Below, piece by piece: positions 3,538 through 25,275 of a stretch of DNA of 39,884 bases. How positions within the stretch are numbered: position 1 is the stretch's first letter; each line of letters begins with the position of its first letter. The notes beneath the pieces are model-generated. The model was given only the letters and a program-made list of their open reading frames with translations, was not told where the DNA came from and made no database searches. Source of the stretch: a virus; IMG/VR virus record IMGVR_UViG_3300010430_004805, positions 1-39,884 of that record. The stretch is one strand, 5' to 3'. The position numbers and the translations under genes are program-made.

Positions 3538-4001
3538 TGGTACGGAAGCGCACGGACAACCTGACGCAGGACTTGTTTGATTGGAAGCCCAAGATCCCGG
3601 TCGAGCGGTATGAGGATCACGTCACCCGCGCAGCGACCCTGCAGGGCCGGATCAGTCTGGCGGTCAGCAAGACTTTGAACGACGCGACCGACGCTGAAGG
3701 TCGCAAGCTGGCACGCGACGATGTTGCCAAGCGGATGGCCGCCTATCTCGGCGAGAAAGTGTCCAAGACAACATTGGATGCCTATGCCAGCGAGGCCCGC
3801 GAAAACAGCATCCCGCTGGACCGCGCCGTGGCGCTGATGATCGTCACCCAGGATTTTCGCCTGCTCTCACTTCTAGCCGATCCGGTCGACCACGCGGTCA
3901 TCCCGGCGAAATACCAGGGCGCTGTCGTTGAAGCGATGCTGGTGGAGAAGCGCGAAGAAATCGACGCAATGATCAACGACTCCCGGCGGGCGCGCAAATG
4001 A
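3537..4001 (+). CDS. Conserved hypothetical protein upstream of transposase
   Basis: A 154-residue protein starting at the ATG of a TGATG overlap; a longer in-frame reading exists upstream but it only shadows the ParB-like gene. The middle (ARDDVAKRMAAYLGEKVSKT, TLDAYASEARENSIPLDRAV) resembles a helix-turn-helix with an adjoining helical bundle. I recall similar proteins just before the transposase in other Mu-like phages, annotated without function. It overlaps the transposase start by ATGA, so it is probably translated in step with it and may be a small DNA-binding cofactor. Confidence 0.75.
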   Translation: MVRKRTDNLTQDLFDWKPKIPVERYEDHVTRAATLQGRISLAVSKTLNDATDAEGRKLARDDVAKRMAAYLGEKVSKTTLDAYASEARENSIPLDRAVALMIVTQDFRLLSLLADPVDHAVIPAKYQGAVVEAMLVEKREEIDAMINDSRRARK

Positions 4002-5941
4002 AGACATGGTGGTCGCCGAAGGAAATGGTCGATGCCGGCCTTGCCGGGATGCCGACCACTGTCCGCGCCATCAACGTCCGGGCCGGTAAAGAGGGCTGGG
4101 CGGAACGCCGCAACCTCGCCGGAGAACCACTTGCCCGTCCGCGCCAGGGCCGCGGCGGCGGCCTTGAATACCACGTCTCTCTCCTGCCGGACGAAGCCCA
4201 GGTTCAGTTGGTGAAGGCCCGCACGCGGGAGGCTCTCGCCGCACCGGCGGCAAAGAAGCCGTCGAGCGCCATATGGGAAACCTTCGAATCCCAGCCTGAC
4301 CGGCAGAAGCAGAAGGCGCGCGATCGACTGCAGGCGCTGATGGATGTAGAGGCGCTGATCCGCGGCGGCCTGCAGAAGAACATCGCGGTCAGCACGATCG
4401 CCGCGCAGCGCGGCGTATCCACCCGGAGCATCTACAACTGGTACGATCTGGTTGTCGGCCATGACGAGAGCGATTGGCTGCCGCTATTGGCGCCGAAACA
4501 CGCCGGCCGTCACGCAACCGTCCCCTGTGATCCAGCGGCCTGGGCCTTCTTCAAGGCGGATTATCTTCGCCTCGCTCAGCCGAGCCTGGAGAGCTGCTAC
4601 CGCCGCCTGCAGATGACGGCCGAGGAAAACGGCTGGACCATCCCAAGTAGCCGGACGCTGCACCGCCGGATCGAGCAGGAGATCCCGGCCGCCGTTCACG
4701 TACTGCTTCGGGAAGGCCAAGAAAAGCTGAAGCGCCTCTACCCGGCGCAGGAGCGCGACCGCTCGAGCTTCCACGCGCTGCAGGCCGTCAACATGGACGG
4801 TCACAAGTGGGACGTCTTTGTCCGGTGGCCTGAAGACAACACCGTCGCTCGACCTATCATGGTCGCCATACAGGATCTGTATTCCGGCAAGATTCTCGCG
4901 TGGCGGATCGACAGGACTGAGAACGCGGACAGCGTGCGCCTCGCCTGCATGGACATGTTCCGGGCCTATGGCATTCCTGACGAGATGAGCTTGGACAACG
5001 GCCGCGCCTTCGCCAGCAAGTTCATCACCGGCGGTGCGACCAACCGCTTCCGCTTCAAGGTGAAGCCGGAGGAGCCGACCGGCATCCTGACCGCCATGGG
5101 CGTCAAGCTGCATTGGACGACACCTTATTCGGGCCAGTCCAAGCCGATCGAACGCGCCTTCCGGGATCTGTGCGACACTGTGGCAAAGCACCCCGCATTC
5201 GAGGGCGCCTATACCGGCAACAGCCCAGACGCCAAGCCCGAGAATTACGGCAGTCGGGCGGTGCCCCTTGAGACCTTCCTGGAGGTCGTCGATCAGGGCA
5301 TTCGGATGCACAATGCCCAGGCCAAGCGCCGGTCTCGCGTATGCCAGGGCATCTATTCTTTCGACGATGTGTTCGCCGCGTCCTACCAGGGCGCGTTGAT
5401 CAAGCGGGCTTCCGAGGCCCAGCTGCGCATGTGCCAGCTGGCCGCCGAGAATGTCCGCGCCAATACCGAAGACGGTTCGATCAACTGGGCCAAGAACCGC
5501 TACTGGGCGGAATTCCTTCTCGAGGTGCGCGGCACCGCGCTGACGATCCGGTTCGATCCGGACGACCTGCAGTCAGGGATCGACGTCTACCGCCTTGATG
5601 GCACATTCATCGGCCGTGCGGAATGCATCGCCGCTGTCGGCTTCAGCGACCAAGCCGCCGCCCGCGATCACAGCCAGAAGCGCCGCAAGTTCATTAGGGC
5701 AACCAAGGACGCAGCGGCCCTCGGCCAGCAGCTGTCACGCGACGAGCTGCTCCGCCAAATGCCGAAACTCGACAACGACGACGAGCCTTTTATCCCGGCC
5801 GCCGTTCGCCTTGCACCCCATCACCGGAATGCCGCGGCGCTGGCCGTCGCGACAAGAAGGCAGCCGGAAGAGCTGCCGGAATTCGAAGACGTCAGTGAGC
5901 ACTGGATGGCCGGTCTCCGGCTGATCTCCGACGACGACTAA
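3998..5941 (+). CDS. A: DDE transposase A (MuA-like)
   Basis: A 647-residue protein, close to MuA (663). The N-terminus (WSPKEMVDAGLAGMPTTVRA) is the Mu-type winged helix that binds an internal site. Residues about 121-151 (IRGGLQKNIAV, TIAAQRGVSTRSIYNWYD) form the second HTH, which binds end repeats. The RNase H-like core has D267 (NMDGHKWD), D333 (SLDNGRAF) and E385 (KPIERAFRD), matching MuA D269/D336/E392. The C-terminal part includes the Mu_transpos_C beta-barrel and a tail that should contact B. It cuts and joins the prophage ends to target DNA during integration and replicative transposition. All catalytic residues are present. Confidence 0.96.
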   Translation: MKTWWSPKEMVDAGLAGMPTTVRAINVRAGKEGWAERRNLAGEPLARPRQGRGGGLEYHVSLLPDEAQVQLVKARTREALAAPAAKKPSSAIWETFESQPDRQKQKARDRLQALMDVEALIRGGLQKNIAVSTIAAQRGVSTRSIYNWYDLVVGHDESDWLPLLAPKHAGRHATVPCDPAAWAFFKADYLRLAQPSLESCYRRLQMTAEENGWTIPSSRTLHRRIEQEIPAAVHVLLREGQEKLKRLYPAQERDRSSFHALQAVNMDGHKWDVFVRWPEDNTVARPIMVAIQDLYSGKILAWRIDRTENADSVRLACMDMFRAYGIPDEMSLDNGRAFASKFITGGATNRFRFKVKPEEPTGILTAMGVKLHWTTPYSGQSKPIERAFRDLCDTVAKHPAFEGAYTGNSPDAKPENYGSRAVPLETFLEVVDQGIRMHNAQAKRRSRVCQGIYSFDDVFAASYQGALIKRASEAQLRMCQLAAENVRANTEDGSINWAKNRYWAEFLLEVRGTALTIRFDPDDLQSGIDVYRLDGTFIGRAECIAAVGFSDQAAARDHSQKRRKFIRATKDAAALGQQLSRDELLRQMPKLDNDDEPFIPAAVRLAPHHRNAAALAVATRRQPEELPEFEDVSEHWMAGLRLISDDD

Positions 5942-5961
5942 GAGAACCAAAGGATGCCAAT

Positions 5962-6927
5962 ATGTCAGACGACAACTTTACCGATGGACTAGCCGAAGAA
6001 GACTATATCGACGCTCAGCGCGATGCGCTTCTCAAGCACAAGGAAGACCAGGGATTCTCCTGGGATACGATCGCGAAGAAATCCGACATCGCTCGCGGGA
6101 CGGTCAGTAATTTCGGCAGCGACAATTACACTGGCAACCGGCTTGCCGTCGCCAAAATGGTCGAACGGTATCTGGCGAGCTATGCCGAGCAGCGCAAGCT
6201 GCGCGACCTGGCCGCGGATGGCCCCAAATTCGAACTGACGCCGACCGCCGACAAGATCTGCAACGTATTGAACTGGTCGCATACGCTGAACAGCGTGGCC
6301 GTCATTGTCGGCGAGCCGGGCTTGGGCAAGACGACAACCTTCCGTCGCTACTGCGAGAACACGCCGCACGCCCATCTGGTTACTTTGCGGGCAGAGGTCA
6401 AAACGGTGCCGCGACTCTATTGCGAGATCGCGAACGCGGTAGGGGTCCGGTCCTACAATTACGCCAATGTTCGTGCGCGCATCCTGGATCATGTGAAAGG
6501 GGCGAACCCGCTCTTGATCGTGGACGAGTGCCAGCATGCGTCCATGCAGATGCTGGACGAGATCCGGTCGCTGAACGATCTGAACGGTTTCGCCATCATC
6601 TTCGCCGGCAACTTGAAGGTTCTCGGTTCCATCCAATCGGAGAAGGCGAATTTCGCGCAACTGGCCAGCCGTGTCGGTCTGCGCCTTGTCCTGACGAAGC
6701 CGTCCGCGGGCGACATCACCGCCTATGCCTCCGCCTGGGGCGTCGAAGACGACAACGTCATGACGCTCCTGAAGAAGATCGGCAATAAGCCCGGCGCACT
6801 GCGCAATATCAAGCAGGTCATGGGGCTCGCAACCCTGATCGCCGCCGGTCAGAACCGGCAGGCGGTCGAGCCCGGCGACGTCGAAAAGGCCTGGGCCAAT
6901 CTCGCGGCCAGCGAGGTGATGGCATGA
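5962..6927 (+). CDS. B: Transposition target-selection ATPase B (MuB-like)
   Basis: A 321-residue AAA+ ATPase (MuB has 312). An N-terminal HTH lies near residues 32-51 (GFSWDTIAKKSDIARGTVSN). Walker A is GEPGLGKT (117-124) and Walker B is LLIVDE (184-189). A sensor-type FAGN lies near 215, and the C-terminal helical domain (about 255-321) corresponds to the MuB DNA- and A-interacting part. ATP-bound MuB filaments coat target DNA, stimulate A and confer target immunity. The gene starts 20 bp after A and overlaps the next ATG by 4 bp. Confidence 0.95.
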   Translation: MSDDNFTDGLAEEDYIDAQRDALLKHKEDQGFSWDTIAKKSDIARGTVSNFGSDNYTGNRLAVAKMVERYLASYAEQRKLRDLAADGPKFELTPTADKICNVLNWSHTLNSVAVIVGEPGLGKTTTFRRYCENTPHAHLVTLRAEVKTVPRLYCEIANAVGVRSYNYANVRARILDHVKGANPLLIVDECQHASMQMLDEIRSLNDLNGFAIIFAGNLKVLGSIQSEKANFAQLASRVGLRLVLTKPSAGDITAYASAWGVEDDNVMTLLKKIGNKPGALRNIKQVMGLATLIAAGQNRQAVEPGDVEKAWANLAASEVMA

Positions 6928-18403: not shown

Positions 18404-19966
18404 ATGACCGACGAAACGAACACCGCCAACAAAGCCGCCGTTCTCCTGCGCGAAGTGGCGACGATCGCCAGCGACCCCGCCTATCCGGCCTTCGACGGTC
18501 TGCTTCGGCAGGAGGACGACACGCTCGCCACGCGCGGCCAGGGCCGCGGCCTGAAGCTGTATGACGAGCTGCTGCGGGACACGCGCTGCCATTCGGTCAT
18601 CCAGAAGCGGGCGACGGCCGTCGTCGCCAAGGAATGGTTCGTCGAGCCGGGTGCGGAGGATTCCCGGGCCAAGGCGGCGGCCGAGCTGGTCGAATCCGTG
18701 CTGAAGGAGTTGAACTTCGACAAGCTGTGCATCGACCTGCTGGACGCGATCCTGAAGGGCTATGCCGTTTCCGAAGTTTTCCCGATGATCGAAGGCGGCG
18801 TCGTCAAGATCGACCGCACCATCGCGCGCAGCCAGGACCGTTTCGTCTTCGACGACAAGCGCCGGCCCCGCCTGTTGACCAGGGACGCGCCGATCAAGGG
18901 CATCACGGCGCCGCCGCGCAAGTTCATCATCCACACCTTCGGCGGCCGCGACGGCAACCCCTACGGACTGGGTCTTGGATCCAAACTGTTCTGGCCGGTC
19001 TTCTTCAAGCGCCAGGGCATCAAGTTCTGGCTGAAGCTGGCCGACCGGTTCGGCACGCCGACAACGATCGCCTCCTATCCCAAGGGCGCCGACGACGCGG
19101 AGATCGACACGGTGCTGCGCGCGCTGCGAGCCCTGGCGAATGACGGCATCATCGCCAAGCCGGAGGAATGGGCGATCGAGCTTCTGGAATCGGCGGCATC
19201 CGGCAATGTCACGACGCAGGAGCAGCTCTGCCGTTACATGGACGAGCAGATGGCGGAATGCGTTCTGGGCGAAACCCTGACCACCAATATCGGCAAAGTC
19301 GGGTCCAAGGCCGCCGCCGAGACGCATGACGGCATCCGCGAGATCCTGGTGAAGTTCGACGCCGACATGCTGTCGGAAACCTTGAACCGGTCTCTCGTCA
19401 CCTGGATCGTCGAATGGAACTTCGGGTTCAATGTGGCGCCGCCCAAGGTTTGGCGGTCCTTCACCGAACAGGAGGATCTGAACGAGCGCGTCGATCGGGA
19501 CGAGAAGCTGTCCAAGATGGGCTGGCATCTGACGCCGGAGAAATTCGCGGAGATTTATGGCGAGGGCTACGAATACCGGAAGCCCGCGCCGCCGCCTGCA
19601 GCGCCCGGTACCGGCGAGGAAGATCCGGACGGCGAGGCGGAAGACGAAGAAGACGGCGACGGCACGGCGGAATTCGCCGAGGCGGCGGCCGGCGATTTCG
19701 CAGACCGTCTTTCGGTCATGCTGGACGCCGCGGCGATGCCCGCCATGAACAAACTGGTCGCGCAGATCCGCGGCGCGCTGGCGTCGTCCACCGACCTGGT
19801 CGAATTCGGCGAACGCATCCTGACGCTCTATCCGGAACTGGACGACAAGGGTCTGGCGCAGCTGATTGGCGACGGCCTGGTCGCGGCCGAGCTGGGCGGC
19901 CGCGCCGAGATCCAGGACGGGCAGAAGGCAACGGCCGGAACCGCGAGAGACCGCGGCAGTGTCTGA
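18404..19966 (+). CDS. Portal protein (DUF935, Mu gp29-like)
   Basis: A 520-residue protein. Family motifs include RDTRCHSVIQKRATAVVAKE, FDKLCIDLLDAILKGYAVSE, GRDGNPYGLGLG, FWPVFFKRQGIKFW and LTTNIGKVGSKAAAETHDGI. An acidic, low-complexity stretch near residues 405-425 (EEDPDGEAEDEEDGDG) precedes the C-terminal helical domain. It forms the dodecameric portal through which DNA enters the head. The 3' end overlaps the GTG start of the MuF gene by 8 bp. Confidence 0.94.
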   Translation: MTDETNTANKAAVLLREVATIASDPAYPAFDGLLRQEDDTLATRGQGRGLKLYDELLRDTRCHSVIQKRATAVVAKEWFVEPGAEDSRAKAAAELVESVLKELNFDKLCIDLLDAILKGYAVSEVFPMIEGGVVKIDRTIARSQDRFVFDDKRRPRLLTRDAPIKGITAPPRKFIIHTFGGRDGNPYGLGLGSKLFWPVFFKRQGIKFWLKLADRFGTPTTIASYPKGADDAEIDTVLRALRALANDGIIAKPEEWAIELLESAASGNVTTQEQLCRYMDEQMAECVLGETLTTNIGKVGSKAAAETHDGIREILVKFDADMLSETLNRSLVTWIVEWNFGFNVAPPKVWRSFTEQEDLNERVDRDEKLSKMGWHLTPEKFAEIYGEGYEYRKPAPPPAAPGTGEEDPDGEAEDEEDGDGTAEFAEAAAGDFADRLSVMLDAAAMPAMNKLVAQIRGALASSTDLVEFGERILTLYPELDDKGLAQLIGDGLVAAELGGRAEIQDGQKATAGTARDRGSV

Positions 19967-23239: not shown

Positions 23240-24181
23240 ATGGCGCCGCCCCTCTCTACCAGCGAAGCCCGGGTCGTCGACCCGATCCTGACCAACCACG
23301 CGCGCGGCTACATACATCCGAACCGCGTTGCCCACCTCCTGTTTCCGCATATCCCGGTGACGGTCCGCGGCGGCAGGCGGATCGAGTTCAACAAGGAGTC
23401 CTTCAAGCTCTATCAGACGCTGCGGGCGCCGGGCGCCGACCGGAAAAAGGTTCAGTTCGGTTTCCTGGGCAAGAAGTTCGCGCTCGAACAGCACAATCTC
23501 GTCGGGCTGCTGCCGACGGAAGTCCGCCAGGAAGCGGCAGTCGTCCCCGGCATCGACATGGGACGGCAGGCCGTCGAATCCGTCCAGGACATCATCTCGC
23601 TCGGCAAGGAACATCAGGCCGCCACACTGGCGCGCGACGCCGCGACCTATGACGCGAACCACAAGGTGACGCTCGCCGGCACGGACCAGTGGGACGATCC
23701 CGCCAGCGATCCCAAGGCCGACGTGAAGGTCGCGCGCGAGGCGATCCGCGGCTCCATCGGCATGGAACCGAACACGATGATCCTGGGGCCGAAAGTATAC
23801 CGGCACCTCGACGATCATCCCAAGCTGCTGGAGAAATTCAAATATACCTCCAGCGAATCCGTCACCACCGCCATGCTGGCTCGCTATTTTGACATCGAGA
23901 AGGTCGAAGTCGGTAAGGCGATCTACGCGGACGACAACGACGACTTCGTCGATGTCTGGGGCCTGGACGTCGTTCTGGCCTTTGTTGCGCCGCAAGGCGC
24001 GCAGCGGCAGCAAGCACCGTCCTACGGCTACACCTACCAACTCCAGGGCCATCCGGCCGTCGCGCCTGCGGAATGGGAGAAGGACAACAAGTCCTGGGAG
24101 TGGGACGTGACGGACGAATATTCGCCGGAGGTCGTCGGCGCCGAGGCCGGCTTCCTGATCCAGTCCGCCGTCTCCGGCTGA
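23240..24181 (+). CDS. Major capsid protein
   Basis: A 313-residue protein at the Mu T position. N-terminal sequence VVDPILTNHARGYIHPNRVA leads to RGGRRIEFNKESFKLYQTLR, EQHNLVGLLPTEVRQEA and a central helix (SVQDIISLGKEHQAATLARD). Later segments (EPNTMILGPKVYRHLDDHPK, VDVWGLDVVLAFV, SYGYTYQLQGHP) are typical of HK97-fold coat proteins in alphaproteobacterial Mu-like phages. No N-terminal delta domain is obvious; scaffolding is supplied by the Z-like protein. AAGGAATTCC precedes the start. Confidence 0.9.
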   Translation: MAPPLSTSEARVVDPILTNHARGYIHPNRVAHLLFPHIPVTVRGGRRIEFNKESFKLYQTLRAPGADRKKVQFGFLGKKFALEQHNLVGLLPTEVRQEAAVVPGIDMGRQAVESVQDIISLGKEHQAATLARDAATYDANHKVTLAGTDQWDDPASDPKADVKVAREAIRGSIGMEPNTMILGPKVYRHLDDHPKLLEKFKYTSSESVTTAMLARYFDIEKVEVGKAIYADDNDDFVDVWGLDVVLAFVAPQGAQRQQAPSYGYTYQLQGHPAVAPAEWEKDNKSWEWDVTDEYSPEVVGAEAGFLIQSAVSG

Positions 24182-24222: not shown

Positions 24223-24639
24223 ATGAATACTTATACCTGTAATTGGCCGGTCAAGCTGAACGGCAAGACCTACGGCGCCGGCCAGGACATCCCGGCTGAA
24301 GGCAAGGTCGCGCGCAATCTGGAGAATTCCGGCTCGATCTCGGCGTCCGCGACCGTCGTCGTGGAAAAGGCGAAGCCGGAACCGCTAACCGACGACCAGC
24401 TCGAAATGGTCGTCGCCGGCGCGGTCCGCCAGCTGAACCCGGAAACCAAGGGTCATTTTCTGAAGGACGGCAAACCCGATGTCGCCGCATTGCAGAAGAT
24501 CCTGGACGATGCCGGCATCAAGCATCAGTTGAGCGCGAAACAGCGCGATGCGATTTGGGAGAAGATCAAGCCGGCCCCGGCCGCGACCGAAGCCCCGGTG
24601 ACGGGAAAGACGGAGGGCGAGGGTTCCGCGTCGGCGTAG
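24223..24639 (+). CDS. Mu gp35/HI1506-like head protein
   Basis: A 138-residue protein. The N-terminal beta part (PVKLNGKTYGAGQDIPAEG) is followed by TDDQLEMVVAGAVRQLNP and a helical module (GKPDVAALQKILDDAGI, LSAKQRDAIWEKI), as in FluMu HI1506 and Mu gp35. Its C-terminus is a low-complexity tail (GKTEGEGSASA). The TAG stop lies inside a tRNA gene (bases 8-10 of the tRNA). Confidence 0.82.
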   Translation: MNTYTCNWPVKLNGKTYGAGQDIPAEGKVARNLENSGSISASATVVVEKAKPEPLTDDQLEMVVAGAVRQLNPETKGHFLKDGKPDVAALQKILDDAGIKHQLSAKQRDAIWEKIKPAPAATEAPVTGKTEGEGSASA

Positions 24640-24705
24640 AGCAGATGGTAGCTCGCCAGGCTCATAACCTGGAGGTCGCGGGTTCAAGTCCCGCCGCCGC
24701 AACCA
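24630..24705 (+). tRNA. Initiator-type tRNA-Met (CAU), phage-encoded
   Basis: A 76-nt cloverleaf ending in encoded CCA. D arm GAGC/GCTC with GG at 18-19, anticodon arm CCAGG-CTCATAA-CCTGG (anticodon CAT 24663-24665), variable loop AGGTC, T arm GCGGG-TTCAAGT-CCCGC. Initiator features: unpaired 1:72 (G/A), A11:U24 in the D stem, C3:G70 and G4:C69. Deviations: 2:71 is U/C and the 29:41 pair is A:U rather than G:C. The first ten bases overlap the end of the gp35-like gene. Either a functional extra tRNA-fMet or a slightly degenerate copy. Confidence 0.85.
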
Positions 24706-24727
24706 ATACCTGAGAGCGGGGGAAAGA

Positions 24728-24833
24728 CCGGGACTTGCATCCCGGAATGAAGGGCGGAAGGCCTGATCCAACCGTCCAGACCCCAGACAAGCGGAAGACC
24801 CCCGGCGTCGTGATCAGGCCATGACGCCGGGGG
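24728..24833 (+). other. Structured leader between tRNA and gp36-like gene
   Basis: CCGGGA-CTTGCA-TCCCGG (24728-24745) is a perfect small hairpin. CCCCCGGCGTC...GACGCCGGGGG (24799-24833) extends to a 14-bp stem with one G-U pair. The loop of the latter (GATCAGGCC, 24812-24820) is complementary to GGCCTGATC at 24760-24768, so two alternative folds are possible. No T-run follows, so a classical terminator is not certain. No gene lies in 24706-24852. Confidence 0.55.
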
Positions 24834-24852
24834 CTGCGAATTTAGAGGCATC

Positions 24853-25275
24853 ATGAATTACGCCACGAAACAGGACATGATCGACCGGTTCGGTGAACCG
24901 GATTTGATCGAACTGACGGACCGCGTGGCGCCCTACGTCGCGGCGATCGTCGACGCTGTCCTGGACCGGGCGATGGCCGATGCCGACCAGGAAGTCGATT
25001 CCTACCTGCGCACCCGCTACGACCTGCCGCTCCAGACCGTTCCCGCCATCGTTCCGCGACTGGCCTGCGATATCGCCTTCTATCTGCTGCATCACGGCAG
25101 GGCGACCGAGGAAGTGGCGAAGCGATATCAGAACGCGACCAAGCTGCTGCGGTCGATCTCCAAGAGGGAAATGGATCTCGGTATCGAAGAAGATCAGCCG
25201 CCCTCAACCAACATGAACATCCGCGTCGATTCCCCTGCGCGGATCTTCACCGACGAAACGCTGGGTGATTACTGA
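24853..25275 (+). CDS. DUF1320 head completion protein (Mu gp36-like)
   Basis: A 140-residue protein matching DUF1320: YATKQDMIDRFGEPDLIELT at the N-terminus, AIVDAVLDRAMADADQEVDS and YLRTRYDLPLQTVPAIVPRL in the middle, and KRYQNATKLLRSISK. These form the adaptor below the portal in related phages. It ends with TGATG, coupling to the G-like gene. Confidence 0.93.
   Translation: MNYATKQDMIDRFGEPDLIELTDRVAPYVAAIVDAVLDRAMADADQEVDSYLRTRYDLPLQTVPAIVPRLACDIAFYLLHHGRATEEVAKRYQNATKLLRSISKREMDLGIEEDQPPSTNMNIRVDSPARIFTDETLGDY

Follow-up and report, generated by a model that had tools for sequence, protein, structure and literature searches.

Positions 24,630 to 24,705 of a Mu-like phage contig probably hold a functional, phage-specialised initiator tRNA gene, gained by recombination from the tRNA pool of unrelated phages; on the sequence comparisons described below, we put the probability of this reading at about 0.6. 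Phage-borne initiator tRNAs are already known. What is new is a variant with a U2·C71 mismatch and its unusual place, inside a Mu-like head operon. The original prediction knew phage initiator tRNAs from large lytic phages. That they mainly belong to such phages was not supported: lone initiator-like ones recur close to packaging genes in phages of 35–65 kb that are largely temperate.

The question of what tRNA genes do for phages is old, and it is mostly raised for large phages that encode elongator tRNAs in numbers. The case described here is a lone initiator-type tRNA, its tip distinctive and conserved, that turns up repeatedly in phages of small size and largely temperate lifestyle, near the most-produced genes. 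Because an initiator tRNA is used once per protein, codon compensation is a poor explanation for its presence. The class offers a clean test of two ideas, a boost to initiation and escape from tRNA-targeting defence, and the overlap with a stop codon in the present case makes it easy to ask whether the same transcript can act as both mRNA and tRNA precursor.

A tRNA gene between gp35 and gp36

The window analysed is the whole of IMG/VR record IMGVR_UViG_3300010430_004805, a virus contig of 39,884 bases (positions 1 to 39,884). Its relevant features are as follows.

3998..6927, + strand: MuA transposase and MuB genes (Pfam DDE_2, 1.3e-60; Phage-MuB_C, 3.2e-20)
18404..19966, + strand: Mu-type portal gene, the query for relatives (Pfam Portal_Mu, 1.8e-106)
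23240..24181, + strand: major capsid protein gene (Pfam Phage_cap_E, 3.6e-15)
24223..24639, + strand: gp35-like gene (ORF), 138 aa, between capsid and gp36, overlapping tRNA bases 1–10
24630..24705, + strand: initiator-type tRNA-Met(CAU), 76 nt, CCA encoded (ARAGORN, Rfam RF00005, minimum-energy folding, alignments)
24637..24639, + strand: TAG stop of the gp35-like gene, forming tRNA U8-A9-G10 (sequence, ORF list)
24663..24665, + strand: tRNA anticodon CAU (ARAGORN position 34, sequence)
24706..24852, + strand: non-coding spacer between tRNA and gp36, 147 nt, strongly folded (z −3.5)
24799..24833, + strand: 14-bp hairpin without a U-tract, 19 nt before the gp36 start (z −6.3 for 24790–24845)
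24853..25275, + strand: gp36 head-tail adaptor gene (Pfam Phage_Mu_Gp36, 2e-38; phrog_195)

The contig is that of a Mu-like transposable phage, with MuA, MuB, a Mu portal and gp36 all present; genes for a virion morphogenesis protein and a tail sheath are also found on it. ARAGORN identifies a single tRNA in the window, Met-CAU, at 24630–24705 on the + strand. This gene lies downstream of the portal and capsid genes, between the gp35-like gene (whose product matches PHROG 2498 and 6213, both of unknown function) and gp36. The coordinates, strand, length, CAU anticodon and encoded CCA given in the original prediction proved exact by ARAGORN, the sequence itself and Rfam, as did the claim that the TAG stop of the gp35-like gene (24637–24639 in the ORF 24223–24639) makes up tRNA bases 8–10. 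The covariance score, which had been proposed as a check, came to 58.7 bits for the Rfam tRNA model RF00005, well over the gathering threshold of 29, with E = 2.5e-10 for the whole window; a chance match is therefore excluded. When the 76 nt are folded freely, the minimum-energy structure is the cloverleaf.

A consensus search at the tRNA revealed no promoter of its own and no intrinsic terminator, and an Rfam scan of the spacer region returned no RNA family other than tRNA. Within the spacer, GGCCTGATC is able to pair with GATCAGGCC, a stretch partly within the loop of the 14-bp hairpin and partly adjacent to it (24760–24768, 24799–24812, 24812–24820 and 24820–24833), such that this pairing and the hairpin are mutually exclusive structures upstream of gp36.

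The tRNA is bracketed, at no more than 30 nt on either side, by a 9-bp direct repeat, GGGAAAGAC, at 24603–24611 and 24720–24728. A flanking repeat of this kind is found at ∼1% of window positions, and it may be a mark of tRNA insertion. The end of gp35 at 24612–24626 resembles the variable loop and T stem of the tRNA (24671–24685) at 13 of 15 positions, a match equalled at 0 of 400 random positions, and the stretch 24729–24742, 3′ of the tRNA, resembles the T arm inverted. Both resemblances are possible remnants of an older tRNA copy.

Initiator traits and the U2·C71 class

The pairings listed in the original prediction are right: G1·A72 is unpaired and U2·C71 mismatched, followed by C3:G70 and G4:C69, with A11:U24 in the D arm and A29:U41 in the anticodon stem. 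The latter continues with G30:C40 and G31:C39 and closes on the loop CUCAUAA, and base 73 is A. Of the initiator traits tested, the CAU cloverleaf, an unpaired 1:72, A11:U24 and the host-class form of 29–31:39–41 are present in the window tRNA. G2:C71, which is usual but not defining for bacterial initiators, is absent, its place being taken by U2·C71. For comparison, 98.6% of bacterial initiators are mismatched at 1:72 (PMC5143459).

Two features had been singled out as oddities, A29:U41 and the 2:71 mismatch. The textbook pattern of three G:C pairs in the anticodon stem is indeed broken at 29:41. Among 30 distinct alphaproteobacterial cellular initiator genes, though, each of the pairs A29:U41, G30:C40 and G31:C39 occurs in 29–30, and A29:U41 itself in all 30. 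An anomaly at this position is thus ruled out, A29:U41 being the normal alphaproteobacterial initiator form. In E. coli, according to Samhita and colleagues, the middle one of the anticodon-stem G-C pairs is reportedly enough, and unusual initiators are said to occur in Rhizobium; the middle pair, G30:C40, is kept by the phage tRNA class described below. The second oddity is real, and is a trait of that class rather than a sign of decay.

Cellular alphaproteobacterial initiators carry G2:C71 in 30 of 30 distinct genes, position 2 having been fixed as G by the search pattern. We found the U2-C3 form in 0 of 199 Hyphomicrobiales genomes and the G2-C3 form in 76 of 101, with G9 throughout among the matches listed. 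In the family that contains Rhizobium, one genome out of 151 has the U2 form. This lone bacterial-genome copy is prophage-borne, flanked on one side by a replication initiation gene and on the other by the terminase, capsid and portal genes. As far as sampled, then, the U2·C71 class is viral. A9 was also considered as a phage marker and is a weak one: it occurs in 15 of 190 alphaproteobacterial genomes, most of them small, in initiators that are normal in other respects.

The exact tip of the window tRNA, G1·A72 plus U2·C71, occurs also in phiLM21, RHph_TM3_3_3 and RR1-A, phages of Rhizobium or Sinorhizobium. A search pattern in which U2-C3 and the D arm were fixed and base 71 was left free matched 111 viral contigs, which gave 94 structurally sound tRNAs, 51 of them distinct. 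Base 71 is C, and hence mismatched with U2, in 50 of these 51 (window tRNA not counted), and the anticodon loop is CUCAUAA in 49. The window tRNA belongs to the class, having U2·C71 together with C3, G7, U8, A9 and the initiator D arm.

In the alignment of 52 sequences that includes the window tRNA, both partners vary in 12 of 21 pairs, and compensating cells number 160 where shuffling gives a mean of 47; the D arm, fixed by the pattern, lies outside this judgement. Position 2:71 is unpaired in 51 of the 52, and the anticodon and T stems are 99–100% paired. Pair 6:67 is other than G:C in 31 (C:G in the window). Some class members can pair 1:72 (U:A, G:U or G:C), which leaves 2:71 as the sole remaining tip mismatch. 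Because the mismatch is kept while the neighbouring stems covary, U2·C71 is not decay; these alignments indicate a conserved trait of a class of phage-borne, initiator-like tRNAs. For the class as a whole, pseudogene status is ruled out by the covariation and the constant anticodon loop, even though 17 of the 111 members appear damaged.

Several groups of members depart from the common form. L254 (6038–6114, − strand), L285 and the damaged L231 and L267 have the anticodon CAC in a CUCACAA loop and would read GUG. In L261, L265, L306, L324, L233, L237, L251, L282 and L297, the 5′ half is intact and the 3′ half diverged or replaced, the pattern itself having selected for the 5′ half. About 30 contigs of a CAGGG type (L010, L034, L241, L252 and others) carry U2·C71 tRNAs, often with U73 and sometimes with a pairable 1:72; those checked have UvsX-like, ssDNA-binding and exonuclease genes in their neighbourhood, not packaging genes.

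Genomic placement and acquisition

To describe where class tRNAs lie, we left out the 30 CAGGG-type contigs, and 39 loci with >4 kb of downstream sequence were testable. Terminase genes are found 0.6–4 kb downstream, on the same strand, in 33 of these 39 loci, which were reached through similarity to a few reference phages, include many rhizobial relatives and are not fully independent. Because the terminases come from different PHROG families (9, 15 and 2), the placement does not reflect inheritance of a single block. In 34 of the 53 loci with enough upstream sequence, a NusG-like gene lies 0.1–2.2 kb before the tRNA. Such loci (L240, L245, L253, L275 and ∼30 others) span phages with different terminase genes, and late antitermination might involve the class tRNA or the region around it. 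The window tRNA is not at the class-typical site upstream of a terminase.

Initiator-like tRNAs also lie beside the terminase in Donnerlittchen, Elanor, ZS04 and CN1A, between Q and the lysis genes in CBW1004C-Prop1, and in the tail operon in NTR1; those of Pan5, RR1-A and PHB04 are placed outside this late-gene tendency. The prophage NV1.1.1 carries a tRNA-fMet (PMC10460002). For phiLM21-like prophages, the accessible portion of one report counts single tRNA-Met, tRNA-fMet or tRNA-Val(CAC) genes, with one tRNA-Val(CAC), and in that portion the count comes without analysis of initiator nature or acceptor tip (PMC12429752). Our literature search, which mostly covered work outside subscription journals, returned no description of the U2·C71 class or of its link to terminase genes.

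Relatives of the portal were fetched, 80 from viral contigs and 80 from genomes. About 70 of the loci reach gp36, including four named phages, and a few represent the same phage in both collections. A tRNA in the head operon was found in 0 of these ∼70 loci, in agreement with the original view that an initiator-type tRNA inside a Mu-like head operon is unusual. The gap between gp35 and gp36 is 213 nt in the window, compared to a median of 2 nt and a largest value of 210 nt in the 58 related loci where it was measurable (in relatives, counted to gp36 from the nearest upstream ORF of 60 aa or more). The closest portal found in genomes, from Rhodospirillaceae bacterium UBA1479, is 51% identical, and the genes of the phage appear by sequence to be akin to those of Rhodospirillaceae-type prophages. 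A search with the gp35 protein found no close relatives, and the same gp35–tRNA junction was present in none of the other viral contigs, nor was there a second assembly of it. One contig of 4,781 bases (L038, sample 3300005589) encodes a portal protein 100% identical to that of the window and ends before the tRNA; it is probably from the same phage population.

Given that the Mu-like relatives examined contain no such tRNA, this phage or a close ancestor appears to have acquired it. The original prediction had taken absence from related phages to speak against the gene. Absence from Mu-like relatives was indeed observed, but the class is widespread in unrelated phages, and the two together point to acquisition rather than a spurious call.

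Possible roles and relation to known systems

We infer that the window tRNA is transcribed within the late head operon, excised from the late mRNA by host RNase P and 3′ nucleases, charged with Met and then formylated, and that it benefits the phage in initiation, by supplying extra initiator during bulk synthesis of structural proteins. U2·C71 would add to G1·A72 in holding the acceptor tip open. RNase P is expected to cut before tRNA base G1. Here, such a cut (24629/24630) would strip the last gp35 codons and cost the gp35 mRNA its stop codon, so that completion of gp35 and release of the tRNA would compete on each transcript. The double mismatch could impair cutting by RNase P, and an encoded CCA has been suggested to help mismatched initiators mature at the 5′ end (PMC5143459).

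Stems that covary, an encoded CCA and an anticodon loop that stays constant fit a tRNA used in translation better than a simple mark for processing. Arguing against a working initiator are the damaged class members (17 of 111), which suggest that the gene is dispensable in some lineages at least, and the presence of the tRNA in one Mu-like phage only among the relatives examined. A broader proposal is more tentative, and we hold it at well under even odds: that alphaproteobacterial phages share a class of open-tip initiator tRNAs (1:72 plus 2:71) that acts late in infection, resists defences or outcompetes the host initiator, travels as a mobile cassette and, in the window phage, limits gp35 through its processing.

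Phage tRNAs have been proposed to evade tRNA-targeting or tRNA-depleting defences (PMC10264068). In agreement with this, the gene could encode a defence-resistant replacement, a special case of a working initiator in which host toxins inactivate tRNA-fMet and the phage copy escapes. Changes in the acceptor stem are the hallmark of the class, and AtaT reads the lower acceptor-stem G-C pairs of tRNA-fMet (PMC7595197), 6:67 being changed in 31 of the 52 phage tRNAs. On the other hand, AtaT hardly depends on the 1:72 mispair (PMC7595197), and the unaltered anticodon loop speaks against evasion of loop-cutting VapC. Overall, we regard a replacement initiator as unlikely. Escape from VapC by way of the anticodon loop is itself unsupported, the loop being unchanged in the class.

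Alternatively, the cloverleaf might serve as punctuation, splitting the late mRNA between gp35 and gp36, with the hairpin at 24799–24833 shielding the new 5′ end and free tRNA of minor importance. The overlap with the gp35 stop, the strong hairpin without a U-tract directly ahead of gp36, and the recurrence of class tRNAs at operon borders in other phages are consistent with such a role. Yet punctuation needs no conserved anticodon loop, initiator traits or CCA, all of which the class keeps, making this improbable in our view. Similarly improbable is a passenger, meaning a phage-borne tRNA gene that recently inserted by chance and is intact but of no benefit in this phage. Its occurrence in no other Mu-like phage examined, the common damage within the class and the flanking 9-bp direct repeat (∼1% of window positions) agree with this, but every functional part of the gene is present and unbroken, and its source class is under selection.

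Many temperate phages integrate in tRNA genes, but an attachment-site remnant from an integrating element is very improbable and was rejected, as this phage, with its MuA and MuB, inserts by transposition, and its tRNA gene is whole and internal rather than at a phage end. According to the same report on phiLM21-like prophages, moreover, the tRNAs these carry differ from the integration-site tRNA (PMC12429752).

A phage-specialised initiator, the reading we prefer, can be set beside several known systems. RcapMu, RcWaterboi, ThpS-P1 and YPCBV-1 have the same gene order as the window, namely portal, head genes, capsid, small gene(s) and gp36. They differ in that their head operons contain no tRNA, and most relatives also lack a comparable gp35–gp36 gap. 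Alphaproteobacterial tRNA-fMet shares with the window tRNA the CUCAUAA loop with its CAU anticodon, A11:U24, the unpaired 1:72, A73, the encoded CCA, and the stem pairs A29:U41, G30:C40 and G31:C39; in genomes hosting related prophages, full-length matches are 81–85% identical to it. In contrast to the cellular tip of C1·A72 plus G2:C71, the window has G1·A72 plus U2·C71. It also has A9, C6:G67 and C27:G43 in place of the cellular G9, G6:C67 and U27:A43, and a D-loop of a type shorter by two bases, unlike that of alphaproteobacterial tRNA-fMet.

Among phages, the phiLM21-like prophages of Sinorhizobium, RHph_TM3_3_3 and RR1-A likewise carry a single gene with G1·A72, U2·C71 and A9, and in phiLM21 and RHph_TM3_3_3 it adjoins the packaging genes. 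(The phiLM21 tRNA is annotated on the opposite strand in its record; the matching sequence is on the + strand.) Unlike the window phage, the phiLM21-type and Rhizobium phages are integrase-type and non-Mu, and their tRNA lies between a NusG-like gene and the terminase. Large phages with tRNA arrays, such as the cluster C1 mycobacteriophages, also encode an initiator-type tRNA-Met (82–86% identity among the mycobacteriophages listed), but there the gene forms part of a long array in a 150-kb phage, whereas in the window it stands alone in the head operon.
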